A DNA stretch of 35,001 nucleotides from Myxacorys californica WJT36-NPBG1 (GTDB lineage: Bacteria; Cyanobacteriota; Cyanobacteriia; Leptolyngbyales; Leptolyngbyaceae): positions 1 to 35,001 of the forward strand of contig JAHHHO010000057.1 in NCBI GenBank assembly GCA_019359315.1, written 5' to 3'. Under the pieces are notes generated by a model. It made no database searches and had not been told where the DNA came from. It saw nothing but the letters and a program-made list of their open reading frames with translations. Shown in pieces: positions 7 to 8,969 of this stretch. Every line of letters starts with the position of its first letter. Within the stretch, counting starts at the first letter, position 1. The position numbers were made by a program, and so were the translations under genes.

Positions 7-395
7 AGACGGGAAGTAGGTGCCATTGATTTTGCCGATTTGTGTGGTAACTTATCAGCTTAAATCAGGCTCTGCTTCCCTCCTAGCTTTCGTTTCAACT
101 TCCAGTACTTCTGTCAGTCAAGCAGGTGTATACCGTTTGCCAAGCGGGAAAGTCTCCTGGCAAGTCGCGCCATTTGCACCCTTGTACCACCACGTACAGA
201 ATGGCGTTGAGGACTGCCCACATCTGGACTGCTCGTGGACGACCACCTGCTTTAGCCGCAGGAATCAAAGGTTCAATCAACTCGAATTGAGCTGGGTTCA
301 GGTTGCTGGAGTATGCTTTACTCATGGCTCTTTCGGTGCTGTCTTTATGTATTTACAGCCTATACCGAGAGAGCTTTTTTACCACCTACCCGTCT
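7..395. mobile_element. Deleted IS5-type element with imperfect terminal inverted repeats
   Basis: A short element of about 390 bp that holds only the first part of an IS5-family transposase. The left end reads AGACGGG-aag-TAGGTG (7-22). The right end, read on the minus strand, is AGACGGGTAGGTG (383-395), so the two ends match apart from three extra bases on the left. The element stops 15 bp short of the sigma factor stop codon at 410. I could not find a convincing target duplication, and the exact ends are inferred. Confidence 0.45.
95..325 (-). pseudogene. IS5-family transposase, N-terminal fragment
   Basis: The 76 codons match the N-terminal DUF4096-type region of IS5/IS1031-group transposases: a start MSKAYSSNL, then [16 protein letters not shown], then [18 protein letters not shown]. 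The frame closes soon after VYTCLTD. In another frame just beyond, [16 protein letters not shown] resembles the following transposase region (REAEPSA), so an internal deletion probably removed the piece between. The DDE catalytic core is absent, so the fragment cannot transpose by itself. Confidence 0.75.
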
Positions 396-409
396 TTTCA
401 AACAGCCTC

Positions 410-1672
410 TTAGGACTGAACTTCGCGTAGCCGACGTTCCAGGAAGCGACGCTCACTGTCATTCGTGACCAGCTCCAGCGCACGGGCATAGCTCTGGGCG
501 GCAGCTTCCGAGACTCCAACGCGTCGCAGCAAATCGGCACGGGCGGCATGGAACAGGTGATAGCCGTTGAGTTCGGTGGTGAGCGCATCCATGAGTCCGA
601 TCGCCGCTTCAGGTTCACCGACCATCGCGATCGCGACCGCCCGGTTCAATAACACAATCGGTGAAGGCTGTAGTCGTTCCAGCACATCATAGAGCCGAAC
701 GATTTGCGCCCAGTCCGTTTCTTCAGCCCGTGCCGCCTGACAATGCAGTGCCGCGATCGCCGCTTGAAGCGCAAACGAACCTGTCCTGCCGCGCAGTGCC
801 TCCTCAACGAGCGGCAGCGCTTCAGCAATTTGCTGATGATTCCAACGGCGGCGATCCTGATCTTCGAGCAGGACGAGATCGCCAGCCTCATCCAAACGAG
901 CATCGCGCCGCGAGTCGTGCAGCAACATCAGTGCAATTAGCGCCGTCACTTCTGAGGGCGGTTGCGGTGCCATCAACGTTCGCACGAGGCGACCGAGCCG
1001 GATCGCTTCCGCACAAAGATCGGCTCTGACCATTGCCTCACCCCGGGTTGCCGCATAGCCTTCGTTAAAAATGAGATAGATCACGGTCAGCACCGCTTCC
1101 ACGCGCCCAGGCAGATCGGTTGTGTCTGGCACTGTGTAGGGAATGCCCGCGTCCCGAATCTTACGCTTGGCACGCACGAGCCGTTGTGCCATCGTCGCTG
1201 TAGGTACGAGAAACGCTCGTGCGATTTCATCGGTCTCCAGTCCGCCCAGCAGCCGCAACGTCAAAGCAACCTGAGTCTCGATCGCCAATGCTGGGTGGCA
1301 GCAGGTAAAGATTAGGCGCAGGCGCTCGTCTGGAATTTCATTAGAGTCGTAGATTGGCTCCTCGCTCGACGGAATTAACCCGGATGCAGCGCACCATTCC
1401 AGTTTCTCGCTAAGCCGCGTCCGTCGTCGGAGGCGATCGATCGCTTTATATCGAGCAGTTCGGATGATCCAGGCACGGGGAAGATCAGGCACACCACGGG
1501 TTTTCCACTGATTCGCAGCCGCCGCAAAAGCTTCTTGTGCCGCTTCTTCAGCAATGTCGAAATCTCCTATTAGCCGAATCAGAATGGCGACAATTCGTCC
1601 CCATTCAGCGCAGTATGTAGCAGCGATCGCTTGGGCAACATCCGATTTTGCGTTTGAAGCCATACTTGACAT
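410..1672 (-). CDS. ECF42-type RNA polymerase sigma factor (COG4941)
   Basis: An alternative sigma factor expected to direct RNA polymerase to a small regulon. Residues from about 10 to 80 form sigma region 2 (FDIAEEAAQEAFAAAANQW, then RAWIIRTARYKAIDRLRR). Region 4 follows at about 105-165 (CCHPALAIETQVALTLRLLGG, then TATMAQRLVRAKRKI). A long helical C-terminal extension of more than 200 residues, of the DUF6596 and TPR-like kind, completes 420 residues. That length and extension define the ECF42 group, which has no classical membrane anti-sigma factor. I prefer ATG at 1672; ATG at 1663 is possible and an upstream TTG at 1687 is less likely. It is divergent from the DGPF gene at 1844, the standard ECF42 partner. 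Confidence 0.88.
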   Translation of the reverse strand: MSSMASNAKSDVAQAIAATYCAEWGRIVAILIRLIGDFDIAEEAAQEAFAAAANQWKTRGVPDLPRAWIIRTARYKAIDRLRRRTRLSEKLEWCAASGLIPSSEEPIYDSNEIPDERLRLIFTCCHPALAIETQVALTLRLLGGLETDEIARAFLVPTATMAQRLVRAKRKIRDAGIPYTVPDTTDLPGRVEAVLTVIYLIFNEGYAATRGEAMVRADLCAEAIRLGRLVRTLMAPQPPSEVTALIALMLLHDSRRDARLDEAGDLVLLEDQDRRRWNHQQIAEALPLVEEALRGRTGSFALQAAIAALHCQAARAEETDWAQIVRLYDVLERLQPSPIVLLNRAVAIAMVGEPEAAIGLMDALTTELNGYHLFHAARADLLRRVGVSEAAAQSYARALELVTNDSERRFLERRLREVQS

Positions 1673-1689: not shown

Positions 1690-1716
1690 TGTCGATTTGA
1701 GCAGTTGCTGTTCGAC
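1690..1716 (+). promoter_or_regulatory. Putative ECF42 promoter, upstream copy
   Basis: TGTCGA (1690-1695), a 17-base spacer, then CGAC (1713-1716). This matches the published ECF42 pattern of TGTCGA near -35 and CGA/TC near -10. It points at the DGPF gene and begins 18 bp upstream of the divergent sigma factor start. Confidence 0.6.
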
Positions 1717-1783
1717 TGACTTACAAAAGAAGCCAAAGGAGGTCAAGTTCGATCGTACCTGATGATAAAAATTTTCTGCGAGG

Positions 1784-1810
1784 TGTCGATTTGAGCAATT
1801 GCCGTTCGAC
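1784..1810 (+). promoter_or_regulatory. Putative ECF42 promoter, gene-proximal copy
   Basis: TGTCGA (1784-1789), 17 bases, then CGAC (1807-1810), followed 34 bp later by the DGPF start codon with GGAGG between. This is the better placed of the two copies to drive the five-gene cluster. Confidence 0.68.
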
Positions 1811-1843
1811 TCACTTGCAAAGGAAAAGAATGGAGGCAACCAA

Positions 1844-2197
1844 ATGAAATATGTGCTGCTGATCTACATGGACGAAAACGCCTTGAGCGACATCGAGCGA
1901 GAACAATGCTATGCGGAATCTGCACAATTTGCACAGCAGATCCACGCGAAGGGACAGTATCTGGCAACCGCCCCGCTCCATTCGGTCGCGACCGCAACCA
2001 GCGTCCGGGTACGAGATGGCAAGCCGTTCCTGACTGACGGACCCTTTGCTGAAACGCGCGAACAATTGGGCGGGTTTTTCCTGATCAATGCTCAGGATCT
2101 AGACGAAGCGATCGCGATCGCGGCCCAACTTCCAGGCGCACGTGTCGGTACAGTCGAAGTCCGTTCCGTGATTGAAGTTGCGGGCTTGCCACAGTAA
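1844..2197 (+). CDS. DGPF/YCII-family protein, ECF42 partner
   Basis: A 117-residue single-domain protein of the YCII-related (PF03795, DGPF) family. It starts MKYVLLIYMDE and contains TDGPFAETREQLGGFFLI at about residues 64-81, the motif that names the family. The biochemical role is unknown; the fold is ferredoxin-like and some relatives may be enzymes. ATG at 1844 is chosen because GGAGG (1832-1836) lies 7 bases upstream and the family start MKYxLLI fits. It is the first gene after the ECF42-type promoters and is divergent from the sigma gene, as in other ECF42 loci, so it is probably the main sigma target. Confidence 0.9.
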   Translation: MKYVLLIYMDENALSDIEREQCYAESAQFAQQIHAKGQYLATAPLHSVATATSVRVRDGKPFLTDGPFAETREQLGGFFLINAQDLDEAIAIAAQLPGARVGTVEVRSVIEVAGLPQ

Positions 2198-2246: not shown

Positions 2247-2690
2247 ATGACAACCGCAAACACCATCACATCTAACGAAGCTCAAATTCGCCAACTGATC
2301 GCCGCTCAACAGCGTGCCATTTGCACCAAGAACGTGGAGCAGATCATGTCCCGCTACGCTACCGAGGTGATTATTTTTGATGTCAAACCCCCGTTTCAAA
2401 TTCAAGGAAAAGCGGCTGTCCGCCAAATGTGGGAAGACTGTTTGCCTTACTTCCCAGATGCTTTTGAGATCGACACACGCGACCTCACGATCGCTGTAAA
2501 TGACACCTTAGCAGTTGCCCATTGGCTGTTTCGCCTCACCGGAATGGAAGACCACCCAGCAATCCAAACCTGGATGCGCGTCACGGCTGTCTGCCAGAAA
2601 AATCAAGGCGAATGGCAGATCCTACACGAACACCTCTCGGTTCCATTTGATCCAGAGACCTCTCAAGCGGCATTCACGCTCAACCCATAG
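2247..2690 (+). CDS. SnoaL-like / NTF2-fold protein
   Basis: A protein of 147 residues with the cone-shaped SnoaL/NTF2 fold signature. An N-terminal helix EAQIRQLIAAQQRAICTKNV is followed by RYATEVIIFDV, then the strand-rich half ending EWQILHEHLSVPFDP. Such proteins act as small hydrolases, isomerases or binding modules, and no specific substrate can be read from the sequence. ATG at 2247 has AGAGGA 9 bases upstream; the longer open frame from 2172 would overlap the DGPF gene. The 49 bp gap to the previous gene suggests co-transcription. SnoaL-like domains recur near stress-type ECF sigma genes. Confidence 0.85.
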   Translation: MTTANTITSNEAQIRQLIAAQQRAICTKNVEQIMSRYATEVIIFDVKPPFQIQGKAAVRQMWEDCLPYFPDAFEIDTRDLTIAVNDTLAVAHWLFRLTGMEDHPAIQTWMRVTAVCQKNQGEWQILHEHLSVPFDPETSQAAFTLNP

Positions 2691-2723: not shown

Positions 2724-3161
2724 ATGAAACTTAATTCTTATCTCATGTTCAACGGCAACTGCGAGGCAGCGTTCAAGTTCTATGAGCAGTGTCTCGGTGG
2801 CAAAATCGTCATGATGCTCACCCACCGAGATGCGCCCTCGGTAGAACATATACCCGCCGAATGGCATGACAAAATCATGCACGTCTGCCTCGATCTAGAC
2901 GGTTCCTCCGGGGTTGCACAGGGCGCAAGTCGCCTCTTAATGGGGTCTGATAGTCCGCCTGGATATTTTGAAACACCCCAGGGCTTCTGTGTGCAGATCA
3001 GCGTTGACGAGCCAGCCGAGGCAGAACAGATTTTTCACGCCCTAGCAGAAAATGGCAAGGTGAAGATGCCGATTGAGCAAACCTTCTGGTCTGTTCGGTT
3101 TGGGATGCTGGTCGATCAGTTTGGCATCCCGTGGATGGTCAACTGCGAGAAAGCGGCTTGA
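2724..3161 (+). CDS. PhnB-like VOC (glyoxalase-fold) protein
   Basis: The 145 residues match the PhnB-like / 3-demethylubiquinone methyltransferase-like branch of the vicinal oxygen chelate superfamily. [28 protein letters not shown] is the typical first beta-alpha-beta unit, and the protein closes with [15 protein letters not shown]. Family members often bind a metal or a small molecule, but the usual glyoxalase metal ligands are not obvious here, so no reaction is assigned. It lies 33 bp after the SnoaL-like gene with AAGGAA upstream, consistent with one transcript. Confidence 0.9.
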
Positions 3162-3241: not shown

Positions 3242-3970
3242 ATGATTAAGAACGAGATCGCGCATCCAAGAATTGCTGCACAAGAGGAGTGGCTCGCCGC
3301 TCGCAAGTCACTCCTCGAACACGAGAAAGAGGCTACTCAACACCGCGATCGCGTGAACGCCGAGCGGCGAAGGCTACCAATGGTCAAACTTGAGAAGGAG
3401 TATACGTTTGAGGGAGCAAATGGCCCTGCCACACTGGCAGATCTGTTCGACGGACGCATTCAGCTCATTGTTTATCACTTCATGTTCGACCCAGAGTGGG
3501 ACAAGGGCTGCACGGGTTGCACAAGTTATGTGGACTCCTTAAGTGACCTGTCAATGCTGAACGATCGCGAAACGACGTTTGTGCTTGTCTCCCGTGCCCC
3601 ACTGCCCAAACTCGAAGCCTACAAATCTCTTAGGGGATGGAGCGTTCCGTGGTACTCCTCTTTCGGGAACGATTTCAATTACGATTTCCACGTCACCTTG
3701 GACGAGAACGTAGCGCCTATCGAGTACAACTATCGGGATAAGGCTGAGATGGAGAGAAGGAACGGCTCTAATTCGATGCAGGGTGAGGGACACGGTTTGA
3801 GCGTCTTCTTCCGCGTTGGCGACGATATTTTCTACACCTACTCGACCTATGCCCGTGGCGTTGAAGGACTCACCAACGCCTACAGCCTCCTCGATGTAAC
3901 ACCATACGGGCGGCAAGAGGCTTTTGAGGACTCGCCTTCGGGCTATCCCCAAAAGCCGACCTACGGATAG
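3242..3970 (+). CDS. DUF899 thioredoxin-like protein
   Basis: This 242-residue protein belongs to the DUF899 family, which has a thioredoxin/AhpC-like fold. After a charged helix ([20 protein letters not shown]) comes [16 protein letters not shown], then [19 protein letters not shown] with a C-x-x-C pair at about residue 90, where thioredoxin-fold redox cysteines sit. A role in redox or peroxide handling is an inference. ATG at 3242 follows GGGAAGGA; the frame is open back to 3131 but that would overlap the VOC gene. It is the fourth gene of the putative ECF42 operon. Confidence 0.88.
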
Positions 3971-4079: not shown

Positions 4080-4562
4080 ATGCAAACCGAATCACAGAAA
4101 GAACACCAGTGGCTACAGAAACTCGTTGGTGAGTGGACCTGCGAAATTGAAGCGATGATGCAACCCGATCAGCCCTCTGAGAAGAGCACAGGAACCGAGA
4201 GTGTGCGATCGATCGGCGGACTCTGGGTTCTGGCTGAAGGGCAGGGCGAGATGCCTGGCTGCGGTCACGCAACAACCTTAATGACGCTTGGCTACGACCC
4301 CCAGAAACAGCGATATGTAGGCACCTGGGTTGGGTCGATGATGACCTATCTCTGGCTGTACGATGGCGAACTGGACGCGGATGAGAAGGTGCTGATGCTC
4401 AATTCCGACGGACCTGCAATGGCTGATGGCGAGAAGATGGCAAAGTACAGGGACATGATCGAGTTCAAGAGCAACGATCATCGAGTGATGACCTCATATG
4501 TGCTGGGTGACGACGGGCAGTGGCGTCACTTCATGACCGCGAACTATCGACGACAGTCATAG
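4080..4562 (+). CDS. DUF1579 family protein
   Basis: A 160-residue soluble protein of the DUF1579 family: HQWLQKLVGEWTCEIEA near the start, GGLWVLAEGQGEMPG in the middle, then LMTLGYDPQKQRYVGTWVG and a C-terminal beta-rich part. The function of the family is unknown. GGAG at 4071-4074 sits 5 bases from the ATG. DUF1579, VOC, DUF899 and DGPF genes are often found together near ECF41/ECF42-type sigma factors, so this is the likely end of the operon even though the gap to DUF899 is 109 bp. Confidence 0.88.
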   Translation: MQTESQKEHQWLQKLVGEWTCEIEAMMQPDQPSEKSTGTESVRSIGGLWVLAEGQGEMPGCGHATTLMTLGYDPQKQRYVGTWVGSMMTYLWLYDGELDADEKVLMLNSDGPAMADGEKMAKYRDMIEFKSNDHRVMTSYVLGDDGQWRHFMTANYRRQS

Positions 4563-4587: not shown

Positions 4588-4821
4588 GTGGAATTGAATC
4601 ATTCAACCCTTTGTTCTACTGACGTTGTCCTTGATAGAGAGTGGGATCATTCCTTTCGACACAGTTTTGCGACGCATCTGCTGGAGCGTGGATATGACAT
4701 CTGCACAATTCAGAAGTTGCTAGAGCACAAAGACGTAAAGACGACGATTTACAGCCACGTGCTCAACAAAGGCGATCGCGGTGTTCATAGCCCGATCGCC
4801 TGCCTCAGGGTTGACGCTTGA
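4588..4821 (+). pseudogene. Integron-type tyrosine recombinase, C-terminal remnant
   Basis: From about 4648 the translation [18 protein letters not shown], then [29 protein letters not shown] is the C-terminal catalytic half of an IntI-like tyrosine recombinase. It includes the HxxR box and the tyrosine in IYSHVLN. Compared with the usual TTMIYTHVLN one residue is missing before the tyrosine. The N-terminal domain and the first catalytic arginine are absent, and unrelated sequence lies upstream. It is a dead fragment of an integrase that once acted here or was carried in. Confidence 0.75.
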
Positions 4822-6208: not shown

Positions 6209-7045
6209 CTAAGTTTCATCCTGCTTTGAAAGCTGTTCCTGCAAAAACTCAAGGACACGCTGCAAGACTCGATGGGTTGGATGCCCACTACCACGGTAGC
6301 CAAGCGTTAGGGTCGGGTGAGAATTCTGAGGAATGTGGTAGGGATTCCCAGGTTTAGAGTTAATCTCGATCGTTTCCAGTATCCTCCCACGTCTCCAACA
6401 GAGTTCGGGGCTCTCTTCGATCACATCAGGTGTGTCATCGAATTGTTGCCGCAACGTCTCAAATCGCTTGGATGGGCTGATCTTGTCTTCTGAAAACCGC
6501 AATGCCAGGATTGGAACTCCTTGCTCTGCTCGTTTTTTGGCGGCCTCTAAATCCTGCTGCGAGATCCCCAACGCCGCTTGATGAGAATGGGTAATCCCAA
6601 ACGGCAAGGCGGGCTGACCCACGATCGGGGCCATCACCGACTCGTCCGCCATCAACGACAGAACGAATCCACCAGTGAGGCACATGCCGATCACGCCGAC
6701 TCCCCGATTTCCGCATTCCTCGTGAGCTTTCCGACAGAGTGCGCGTAGCCAAGTGGTGATGGGACTGGACTGATGTTTAGCAAAGCAGTAAAACTCCTGG
6801 CTAATACAAAGTTGCGCCGTGTAAGCCAACGTATTCGGGATGGAGAGCGGTTCGTCTGGCTGGCCAAACAGAAGTGGCAGGTAGACTGTAAACCCTGCAT
6901 CCGCAATCCGTCGCGCTAAGTCAACGCATTCGGGAATCATGCCTGGCAGTTCATGCATGAGGATGACAGCAGGTCCTTCACCTTTGCGATAGACCCGCCG
7001 AGAGGAGCCAGCCTCAGCAAAATCAAACATGACAAAATCATGCAT
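6209..7045 (-). CDS. Dienelactone hydrolase family protein
   Basis: An alpha/beta hydrolase of 278 residues. GVGVIGMCLTGGFVLSLM at about residues 115-132 carries the nucleophile elbow G-x-C-x-G, with cysteine in place of the usual serine, typical of dienelactone hydrolases. LALRFSEDKISP supplies the likely acid, and a histidine in SGHPTHRVLQ near the C-terminus would complete the triad. Known relatives open lactone rings such as dienelactone; the actual substrate here is unknown. GGAGGAG lies about 8 bases before the ATG. It is oriented like the GAF gene upstream and the secreted protein downstream, with gaps of over 100 bp. Confidence 0.88.
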   Translation of the reverse strand: MHDFVMFDFAEAGSSRRVYRKGEGPAVILMHELPGMIPECVDLARRIADAGFTVYLPLLFGQPDEPLSIPNTLAYTAQLCISQEFYCFAKHQSSPITTWLRALCRKAHEECGNRGVGVIGMCLTGGFVLSLMADESVMAPIVGQPALPFGITHSHQAALGISQQDLEAAKKRAEQGVPILALRFSEDKISPSKRFETLRQQFDDTPDVIEESPELCWRRGRILETIEINSKPGNPYHIPQNSHPTLTLGYRGSGHPTHRVLQRVLEFLQEQLSKQDET

Positions 7046-7165
7046 CCGATGAACTCCTCCGGTTAGTGTCTACAGCCCCAGCATAACCGCTGATTCGATT
7101 GGTGATGAACTACTCAGCTCAAGATCGTGGGTGGGTTGTTGCCCCTCAAAGCGGCAACAACTCGC

Positions 7166-7702
7166 TTAAATTGCAACTGCAGCTTGAGTCGCTTCGATCA
7201 GTTGCGGGTCTTCCTTGCGAACCTCAGACATGAAAAAGACAAGAATAGCCTGGCTCGCGCCCATACTTATAGGTAAACCGAAGGCTGCTCTCGCTCCGAA
7301 GGCTTTAGCGATTTGATTCCGTAAGAAATAGGACTTCAACTCAGCAGCAGCATCGACTAACCATTCTGCTTCTTGAGTGACCCAAACCCGACCGGGCAAG
7401 CCTTCACCTGGATGCAAGACAAACTTTTGGCTACAGTTATGAAAATGCTCCCAGTCAATTCTGCGATCGCTGCTTAGATCAATTCGGGTATACCACGCTG
7501 AACTGATTTCTAGCAGTTTACGGTCTGGTGTAGGAGTCCAGGCTTCACCGTACTCCCAAGCGGTTGCTTCACAAACCGCTTGCAGGAGAGCCGTCAGTAC
7601 CGGATCAACCTTAAGTGAGAAAGTGTTGAGTGAGGAAGTGTTCCGGGTAGAAGCAGAGAGGGTGGGTGAACCACCCTCCCGTATTCGCTCTGGCTTAGTC
7701 AT
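7166..7702 (-). CDS. Stand-alone GAF domain protein
   Basis: After about 35 low-complexity N-terminal residues, one GAF domain fills the rest of 178 residues: ATAWEYGEAWTPTPDRKLLEI, then HPGEGLPGRVWVTQEAEWLVD, then YFLRNQIAKAFGARAAFGLPI. This GAF subtype is normally a module in large cyanobacterial sensor kinases and guanylate cyclases. Here no output domain follows, and the domain stops slightly early at EATQAAVAI. It is either a small ligand-binding protein or the relic of a larger sensor. ATG at 7702 is used; an upstream TTG at 7729 is possible. Confidence 0.7.
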   Translation of the reverse strand: MTKPERIREGGSPTLSASTRNTSSLNTFSLKVDPVLTALLQAVCEATAWEYGEAWTPTPDRKLLEISSAWYTRIDLSSDRRIDWEHFHNCSQKFVLHPGEGLPGRVWVTQEAEWLVDAAAELKSYFLRNQIAKAFGARAAFGLPISMGASQAILVFFMSEVRKEDPQLIEATQAAVAI

Positions 7703-8234
7703 GCGATTTTGCGTATCATTGCTAAACAAATGCTTGTCATTAAGGCAAACAATATATTACGGGGCACCTTGCTTACTGTTAAACAACGCACATCTTCGCG
7801 GTTTAACCTGATAAAAGGGTTGAGCCGAGATAGGCTTCCTAGTGAGGTAGAGAGGACTCCTTCCCGTGTTTTGGCGTTTCCCATAGCTTTTTGGCTCAAA
7901 CCAACGTTAAGGCTGTTATTTCATTAGAACGGAAGCTGTGATGCCCTGAGCATTGAGGGCTTGATAAAACTTGAAATTCAAAATCGAATTTAGGAAGCGA
8001 TCGTAAACATGCCTTAAAACTGCGCGGCGTGTTCTAGAAGTCTAATCATGTAAAAGTTCGCCTGGTTTTGGGTGAGAATTGGCGTCTAATTCCTTTATGT
8101 CGCGATCTCTTAATCAATTGGCAGGCTCTTTAATCTCTTCAGGCTCAGACGATTTTGAGTTTGCTGTAAAACTCCCATAAGATGATTGGTGAACCGCGAT
8201 AACTTCAAAATTCCCTATCCTCCAGTGGTGAACT
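7703..8234. other. Gap of 532 bp without a convincing gene
   Basis: Only short frames without domains or ribosome binding sites are present on either strand. It should hold the promoter of the minus-strand GAF gene and of the small acidic protein gene at 8235, but I see no clear -35/-10 pair and no tRNA or long repeat. Confidence 0.5.
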
Positions 8235-8441
8235 ATGAACACAGAGAACGATTCTAGCGATCGTGTTGCTGATATCTTGCAACGCTTCCAAACCCTCATT
8301 GATGAGGATCTCAGTGATGATGAGATCGAAACTCGGCTCAAGACAGATTTCACAGAGGAAGAACAAAAGATTATCAGTGAGACTTTTTTGAGCCTGATTG
8401 AAGCAGGCGAAACCGAGCGCCATTTTCCATTAGATAGCTGA
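8235..8441 (+). CDS. Small acidic protein, unknown
   Basis: A 68-residue, strongly acidic and mostly helical protein (MNTENDSSDRVADILQRFQ, then EDLSDDEIETRLKTDF, then TEEEQKIISETFLSLIEAGE). I recognise no family. The regular amphipathic pattern and rich charged content make it look like a real protein and not a shadow frame, but the ribosome binding site is weak and no neighbour points to a role. Confidence 0.5.
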   Translation: MNTENDSSDRVADILQRFQTLIDEDLSDDEIETRLKTDFTEEEQKIISETFLSLIEAGETERHFPLDS

Positions 8442-8969
8442 GGGGAGGTTCACTATCGAGCCAATTGCGATCAATCAAACAATTGATATTAAGACGATTC
8501 TAATTGAAAAGCTGGACGAGCTGTAAAGCAAATCTGAGTGGTAACACTGTAGATTTAAGGTGGCAACGCTTTGGAACCCTGATAGCTATTAGGCCACAGC
8601 TATCAAGAGCGCTAGCTTGCGCTTACCCCTGTTACCACCAGTTCCACTTCGCTCCTCATCAAGCCATTAAATAATTTTACGATCGTTCGGAGTTTGGCAA
8701 AGCCAAGCGCACTTGATCTGTGCCGTTATCAAGATTGATTTCACTACAACTAAATCACGCAGGATTACCGAGTCGTTCAGATAAAGTTTTCAGCTAAAGT
8801 TTATTCAGCCAACACAGCAGATACTGTTTACTCAAGATGCAGCTTTTTAGATTATTGGAAGTCATAATGTTGATTATCTTGACGCAAAGTTGATCATCTT
8901 GATATTACGTGCTGCAAGAAAGGAATTCATTCCATTGATTAGTAAGTAAAACGCTATGAAAGATAGCTA
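8442..8969. other. Gap of 528 bp holding a branched palindromic element
   Basis: There is no believable gene. The notable content is the nested inverted repeat at 8538-8638, described separately. The rest is AT-rich with no other structure that I can support. Confidence 0.5.
8538..8638. repeat. Nested inverted repeats forming a possible three-way junction
   Basis: The outer arms GTGGTAACA (8538-8546) and TGTTACCAC (8630-8638) are perfectly complementary over 9 bp. Inside are two more stems: TGATAGCT (8580-8587) with AGCTATCA (8598-8605), loop 10, and AGCGC with GCGCT at about 8608-8623. Such nesting fits a structured RNA or a small palindromic mobile element (MITE or REP type). I cannot tell which. 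Confidence 0.5.

Follow-up and report, generated by a model that had tools for sequence, protein, structure and literature searches.

Tandem predicted ECF42-type promoters between a sigma factor gene and a YCII-related operon in Myxacorys californica and related cyanobacteria

Why should one operon be preceded by two copies of what looks like the same promoter? The question is raised by a 35,001-nucleotide stretch of DNA from Myxacorys californica WJT36-NPBG1 (the window), in which the gene for an ECF42-type sigma factor and an operon headed by a YCII-related (DGPF) gene diverge, with both copies of the sequence TGTCGA-N17-CGAC lying in the gap between them. The sequence is of a familiar kind: the ECF42 sigma factors of Streptomyces venezuelae (Sven_0747 and others) reportedly use a promoter motif made up of TGTCGA and CG[AT]C. 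These proteins and the sigma factor of the window have a C-terminal extension in common, although they come from different phyla; according to a review, the extension in ECF42 proteins comprises about 200 residues and is TPR-rich, and protein contacts made through it have been proposed as the means of activation (PMC8999054). Another member of the group, ECF-10 of Pseudomonas putida, has been tied to antibiotic and oxidative stress (PMC8999054, PMC6180224).

The locus and its repeated element

The sigma factor gene occupies positions 410..1672 on the minus strand, and either the ATG at 1672 or that at 1663 would presumably be its start. Its product matches Sigma70_r2 (34.1 bits) and Sigma70_r4_2 (34.8 bits), both above the Pfam cut-off, and the long C-terminal extension is present as a DUF6596 match (124 bits) at residues 195–297 of the 425-residue open reading frame. 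No TPR family matched this protein at E values up to 0.001; the extension itself is seen, the repeats are not. In a search of NCBIfam, the best 25 of 31 matches were to general sigma factor models, all under cut-off. A sigma-70-like sequence on the minus strand (1789-1762) is a candidate promoter for the sigma factor gene, but as a lone match where 0.5 would be expected by chance it is too weak to be claimed as one.

Adjoining the sigma factor gene, as is a trait of the ECF42 group, the YCII-related gene (1844..2197, plus strand; PF03795, 76.9 bits) is the first of five plus-strand genes, a detoxification-like set that probably forms one operon, the others encoding a SnoaL-like protein (2247..2690; PF13474), a VOC or glyoxalase-like protein (2724..3161; PF00903, PF06983), a DUF899 protein (3242..3970; PF05988) and a DUF1579 protein (4080..4562; PF07617). 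This arrangement agrees with the initial annotation, in which both sites were taken to be aimed at the DGPF gene beside an ECF42-type sigma factor gene. Further downstream, at 4603-4818 (plus strand), an open stretch resembles the C-terminus of a tyrosine recombinase, which we take to be integron-integrase-like, its translation containing HKDVKTT; at about 60-330 (minus strand) lies what is presumably a fragment like the N-terminus of an IS5-type transposase, its frame broken downstream. These pieces suggest that mobile DNA flanks the operon on both sides.

The two sites are exact plus-strand matches, as first annotated, at 1690-1716 and 1784-1810, and their starts are 94 bp apart. The distal predicted promoter consists of a −35 element TGTCGA (1690-1695), 17 nucleotides and a −10 element CGAC (1713-1716); the same elements of the proximal one lie at 1784-1789 and 1807-1810. 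When the window was shuffled, the mean number of matches was 0.08 and none of 100 shuffles held two. Across the whole genome, on both strands, the plain motif has 10 matches and its reversed control also 10, so that the weight is carried by the position, pairing and conservation of the sites and not by rarity of the plain motif. The extended form TGTCGATYT-N12-TTCGAC has the window pair as its sole matches in the 5.97-Mb genome, and its reversed control has none.

Each site is held within one unit of an imperfect direct repeat (1671-1742 versus 1765-1836, plus strand; 72 nt, 83% identity, spacing 94), the limits and parts of which follow from alignment of the repeats and leaders. The distal unit contains an A/T tract, the promoter, a leader and a Shine-Dalgarno-like GGAGG; the proximal unit likewise contains an A/T tract, the promoter and a leader, within which GGAGG at 1832-1836 is the Shine-Dalgarno sequence, and 33 bases lie between its −10 element and the YCII start codon. 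Between the units, at 1750..1758 (plus strand), is the conserved block CGATCGTAC, identified by alignment (consensus CRATYGTAC). The identical 17-base spacers, together with the occurrence of the site in a distant phylum, had been offered as a sign that sigma factor and site have stayed together. Because the two sites are the arms of a single 94-bp tandem duplication, their equal spacers are not independent evidence; the association of sigma factor and site has its support instead in the comparisons between loci and between genomes that follow.

Conservation of the site and of its doubling

For comparison we sampled the DNA around PF20239 hits together with 80 named loci from many phyla (80 of the 587 relatives found), removing two loci (L098 and L110, duplicates of L090 and L029) before counting. 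Spacers of N8 to N26 were scanned in the 300 bp upstream of YCII, with the motif halves reversed as a control; loci whose YCII match did not extend to the start do not enter the denominators (5 of 44 cyanobacterial loci and 16 of 77 others). Among the matches listed, the N17 form stands before YCII in 34 of the 39 remaining cyanobacterial ECF42 loci, the window uncounted, for a total of 57 sites; any other spacer is found in at most 3 of the 39, and the reversed control gave none at N17. This was the search by which the initial annotation proposed that its reading could be refuted, and the motif came through it. In the other phyla, again among the matches listed, 18 of 61 loci have the N17 form and 5 of 61 the N16 form. 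An exact N17 site within 300 bp is thus missing from 43 of the 61 YCII loci of other phyla and from 5 of the 39 cyanobacterial ones (among the matches listed), and the motif is therefore not universal for ECF42; loci of other phyla that lack an exact copy may have a variant of it or a different site. Judging from these sequences, the N17 site is probably real and strong in cyanobacteria, and there is a high probability that the window sites are promoters. The distance from the proximal copy to the YCII start is likewise confined, at 24-25 or 34 in 22 of 23 loci and 46 in one, on a scale where the window is 34; this count, like that of site symmetry below, uses the sites of 23 of 24 divergent loci, L086 being too far from YCII. 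A second cyanobacterial ECF42 subgroup (L037-L040, L091, L093, L095, L096) has a single TGTCGAAAT-N14-CGTC before YCII and a co-oriented sigma factor gene.

The layout can also be compared with that of RpoE10, an ECF42 member of Sinorhizobium meliloti for which three promoter sequences have been given, two of which precede operons whose expression rose when RpoE10 was overexpressed (PMC6180224). Counting the spacers in those sequences, we find TGTCGG-N17-CGTC in all three. The two systems are therefore alike in a TGTCG[AG]-N17-CG[AT]C layout, and also in a YCII-related neighbour, in glyoxalase-like genes among the targets, in a C-terminal extension and in belonging to a group with members that have no identifiable anti-sigma factor nearby (PMC6180224). 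They differ in that Sinorhizobium has TGTCGG and CGTC in place of TGTCGA and CGAC, one site is given per operon, and YCII and sigma factor genes are predicted to form one operon; furthermore, in Sinorhizobium the site preceding YCII overlaps with the putative start of this gene, which showed no response when the sigma factor was overexpressed (PMC6180224). A survey of literature on ECF42, DGPF, tandem promoters and cyanobacteria, with most subscription papers outside its scope, returned no title on tandem ECF42 promoters. Hence, within the portion of the literature covered, ECF42 promoters are a known kind of element and their conserved tandem array is a new architecture.

How far does the association of site and sigma factor extend? 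PF20239, the extension of this type of sigma factor, was found in 14 of 386 genomes of a sample of the phylum and in 24 of 42 genomes sampled from the window's order. Of these 24 genomes with PF20239, 20 also have the extended motif, versus 1 of the 18 without PF20239 (Fisher p 7e-7, which is too small a value since relatedness is ignored). The four PF20239 genomes without the extended motif are G288, with a broken locus, and G416, G418 and G419, in which the ECF42 proteins all belong to a different subgroup, with TGTCGAAAT...CGTC at such sites as were found; in the sole positive genome without PF20239 (G407), the match lies inside a 1261-residue open reading frame. Across 15 genomes of the order the extended motif occurs in tandem at 19 places, each upstream of a YCII-type operon. 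At the broken locus of G288 (L041), which belongs to the window's own genus, the end of the SnoaL-like gene is joined directly to the middle portion of the sigma factor gene at about 7878-8608, the promoters and YCII are gone, and the PF20239 match carries a stop.

The doubling follows the sigma factor phylogeny. In a quick tree of 60 of 121 sequences (all 44 cyanobacterial ones and 16 others picked by hand, the broken L041 omitted), the sigma factors of the 24 divergent cyanobacterial loci, that of the window among them, group in a single clade (SH-aLRT 99), and they are 78-87% identical to the window's sigma factor. At least two recognisable copies are present in all 24, if up to two departures from the extended form are allowed. 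Three copies with an intact core are found in L029, L032 and L090, and L089 has three of which one is decayed. The core of the distal copy is changed in L086, L087 and L089, and one copy of L030 is a remnant, from which it follows that the distal copy is at times dispensable. Copies are spaced 81-96 bp apart and once 173; these spacings were also considered for helical phasing, and no special period appears at 10.5. The array has been opened in two loci: in L031 a 4.8-kb insertion separates the two copies, leaving one at each gene, and in L086 genes for DUF1428, GST, RibD-like and 3-dmu-9_3-mt proteins sit between the copies and YCII. A leader open reading frame running from the distal unit was considered and dropped, being inconsistent across loci when inspected by eye.

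Outside this clade we find single sites. Seven non-cyanobacterial divergent loci (L099, L100, L101, L120, L213, L215, L233) carry a single copy in the gap adjoining the sigma factor gene, the −10 element reading CGAT in L213 and L215. In L214, for which the search turned up no YCII, a −35-like half is all that is present. None of the 33 co-oriented loci with sites has two before one gene (34 sites; one locus has sites before two genes). The record containing L101 is titled Bordetella parapertussis and is metagenome-assembled; its sigma factor clusters with acidobacterial and cyanobacterial ones, and the label may be wrong.

What the two copies may do

The tandem copies are thus a lineage trait, and their retention in many species makes it probable both that the start signal is real and that having it repeated is of use. 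The reading that we favor, and which we consider quite likely on the comparative evidence, is that both sites are promoters for the ECF42 holoenzyme that act on the same operon, the distal one by read-through, and that they add to its output. RNA polymerase with the neighboring ECF42-type sigma factor would recognise both sites and read rightwards into the YCII-SnoaL-VOC-DUF899-DUF1579 genes. The proximal copy would give a transcript with a short leader and its own Shine-Dalgarno sequence before YCII, and the distal copy, derived from an old tandem duplication, would give a second transcript, longer by about 94 nt, which reads across the proximal promoter into the same operon and adds to its output while the sigma factor is active. 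Recognition by this sigma factor, the start points and additivity are what we infer from this arrangement; the initial suggestion that two copies may strengthen or tune the output is plausible.

Does the distal copy matter at all? The duplication might be a neutral relic, with the proximal copy alone of consequence, and consistent with this the core of the YCII-nearest copy is unchanged across 23 loci (0 of 230 positions off the commonest base, versus 83 of 276 in the inner spacer) while the distal copy has decayed in a few. The sigma-nearest copy, however, also has a conserved core, with 3 of 240 positions off in 24 loci versus 70 of 288 in its inner spacer, although in both comparisons the contrast is somewhat inflated in that copies were recognised partly through the core (of L086 the first 420 bases were used, and this locus does not enter the proximal count). 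Moreover, in those 22 of the 24 loci where two copies match exactly, each copy retains a spacer specific to its position (1 of 2000 label swaps gave a value as high), which also speaks against a relic, as do the at least two copies kept in every locus of a clade whose sigma factors share 78-87% identity with that of the window. The copies of one genome are slightly more alike than expected in the same 22 loci (83 of 5000 shuffled pairings as high), and re-duplication or conversion may therefore occur, a point in the relic's favor. Taken together, the position-specific spacers and the likeness within genomes suggest that the array goes back to an old duplication modified by a degree of conversion or re-duplication, and we regard a neutral relic as improbable.

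The sites may instead serve both genes of the divergent pair: the sigma-nearest copy would drive the sigma factor gene leftwards, or both ways, and the operon-nearest copy the operon, giving positive autoregulation despite the divergence. We examined this idea through site orientation and by adding two more phyla, with sets of loci centred on G426 and G427. The element is nearly symmetric, with arms GTCGA-N16-TCGAC, a T preceding CGAC in 46 of 47 divergent cyanobacterial sites (23 loci) versus 21 of 34 sites of co-oriented loci; the sites of two non-cyanobacterial divergent loci, L100 and L120, are perfectly symmetric; and the insertion in L031 left one copy at each gene. However, none of the 47 divergent cyanobacterial sites is perfectly symmetric, and since a T follows CGAC in 45 of them the leftward −35 element reads AGTCGA, and not TGTCGA, in the window and in most others. 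Perfect symmetry is also seen in co-oriented loci (TGTCGA-N16-TCGACA before YCII in L250 and L252, from a Planctomycetes-centred set), so that symmetry is not tied to divergence, and for this reason a bidirectional promoter is kept as a rival only. In addition, no Shine-Dalgarno-like sequence was seen by eye before the sigma factor start, and the sigma-70-like match noted above might drive that gene instead, albeit with the chance expectation given there. Leftward use is hence an unlikely reading. Near-symmetric arms in a tandem layout would also suit a dimeric regulator, with the repeats being repressor or activator operators and no promoters at all; the fixed 17-nt spacer, the near-fixed distance between proximal copy and start codon given above, the matching layout of the Sinorhizobium ECF42 promoters and the co-occurrence of sites with the sigma factor gene make this very unlikely.

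The block between the copies deserves separate consideration. CRATYGTAC is present in the inter-copy stretch of 20 of 23 intergenic regions scanned, including the window and skipping L031, and inspection by eye revealed no counterpart between the first unit and the sigma factor gene. The core reads CGATCG or CAATTG depending on the locus, both symmetric, and CAATCG once (L081), such that all but one of the block-bearing loci have a symmetric core. The block may be the site of a second regulator. The cyanobacterial LexA box is a GWAC-N4-GTWC palindrome, and by eye one interspace in each of L029, L030, L089 and L090 fits it, reading GWAC-N4-GTAC beside a TATAAT-like sequence; these are the three-unit loci L029 and L090, together with L089 (one unit decayed) and L030 (one a remnant). 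The window's inter-copy block, by eye, does not fit the pattern. Counted per strand over whole genomes against a reversed control, the pattern occurs 17/21 times in G000, 14/23 in G060, 23/9 in G410, 16/22 in G412 and 8/10 in G027, and a LexA box at the block is not claimed since enrichment over the control is seen in one genome of five, G410. One can imagine, finally, an array built as an integrator and not as a spare, in which distal promoter, CRATYGTAC block and proximal promoter are one module, a second regulator acts between the promoters, the distal one feeds back on the sigma factor gene, and the module duplicates in units mostly of 81-96 bp and stays with operon copies served in trans; we hold this to be speculative and rather doubtful.

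Sites away from the sigma gene and their use

Returning to the two sites as promoters of the ECF42 holoenzyme, it is informative to consider sites found apart from an intact sigma factor gene. Three further copies of the YCII-type operon (L206, L207 at 6385-7482, L208) keep the tandem pair or triple with no intact sigma factor gene found beside them: in L206 and L207 there are stubs only, and in L208 no remains were found beside the operon. Each of the three genomes has an ECF42 gene elsewhere, and these sequences suggest that the tandem array can work in trans. The first YCII gene of L206 is apparently broken, and a second YCII-type gene comes after it. In L207 an Ada-type DNA-repair regulator lies immediately beyond the sigma stub. 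A single extended site also stands before a glutathione S-transferase gene, remote from the sigma factor gene, in L209 (3020, minus strand) and L210 (7148, plus strand), at 39-57 nt from the start depending on the start codon chosen; the family assignment was searched in L210. The remote glutathione S-transferase gene is a likely further member of the ECF42 regulon.

ECF42 sigma factors are widespread, and little is known of their signals and regulons. A tandem module that is fixed and searchable could act as a predictor of the regulon of cyanobacterial ECF42 proteins, of which the remote glutathione S-transferase genes are an example. Likewise, the promoters with one, two and three copies provide a natural series in which the effects of promoter duplication may be studied in an ECF circuit for which no anti-sigma factor is known.
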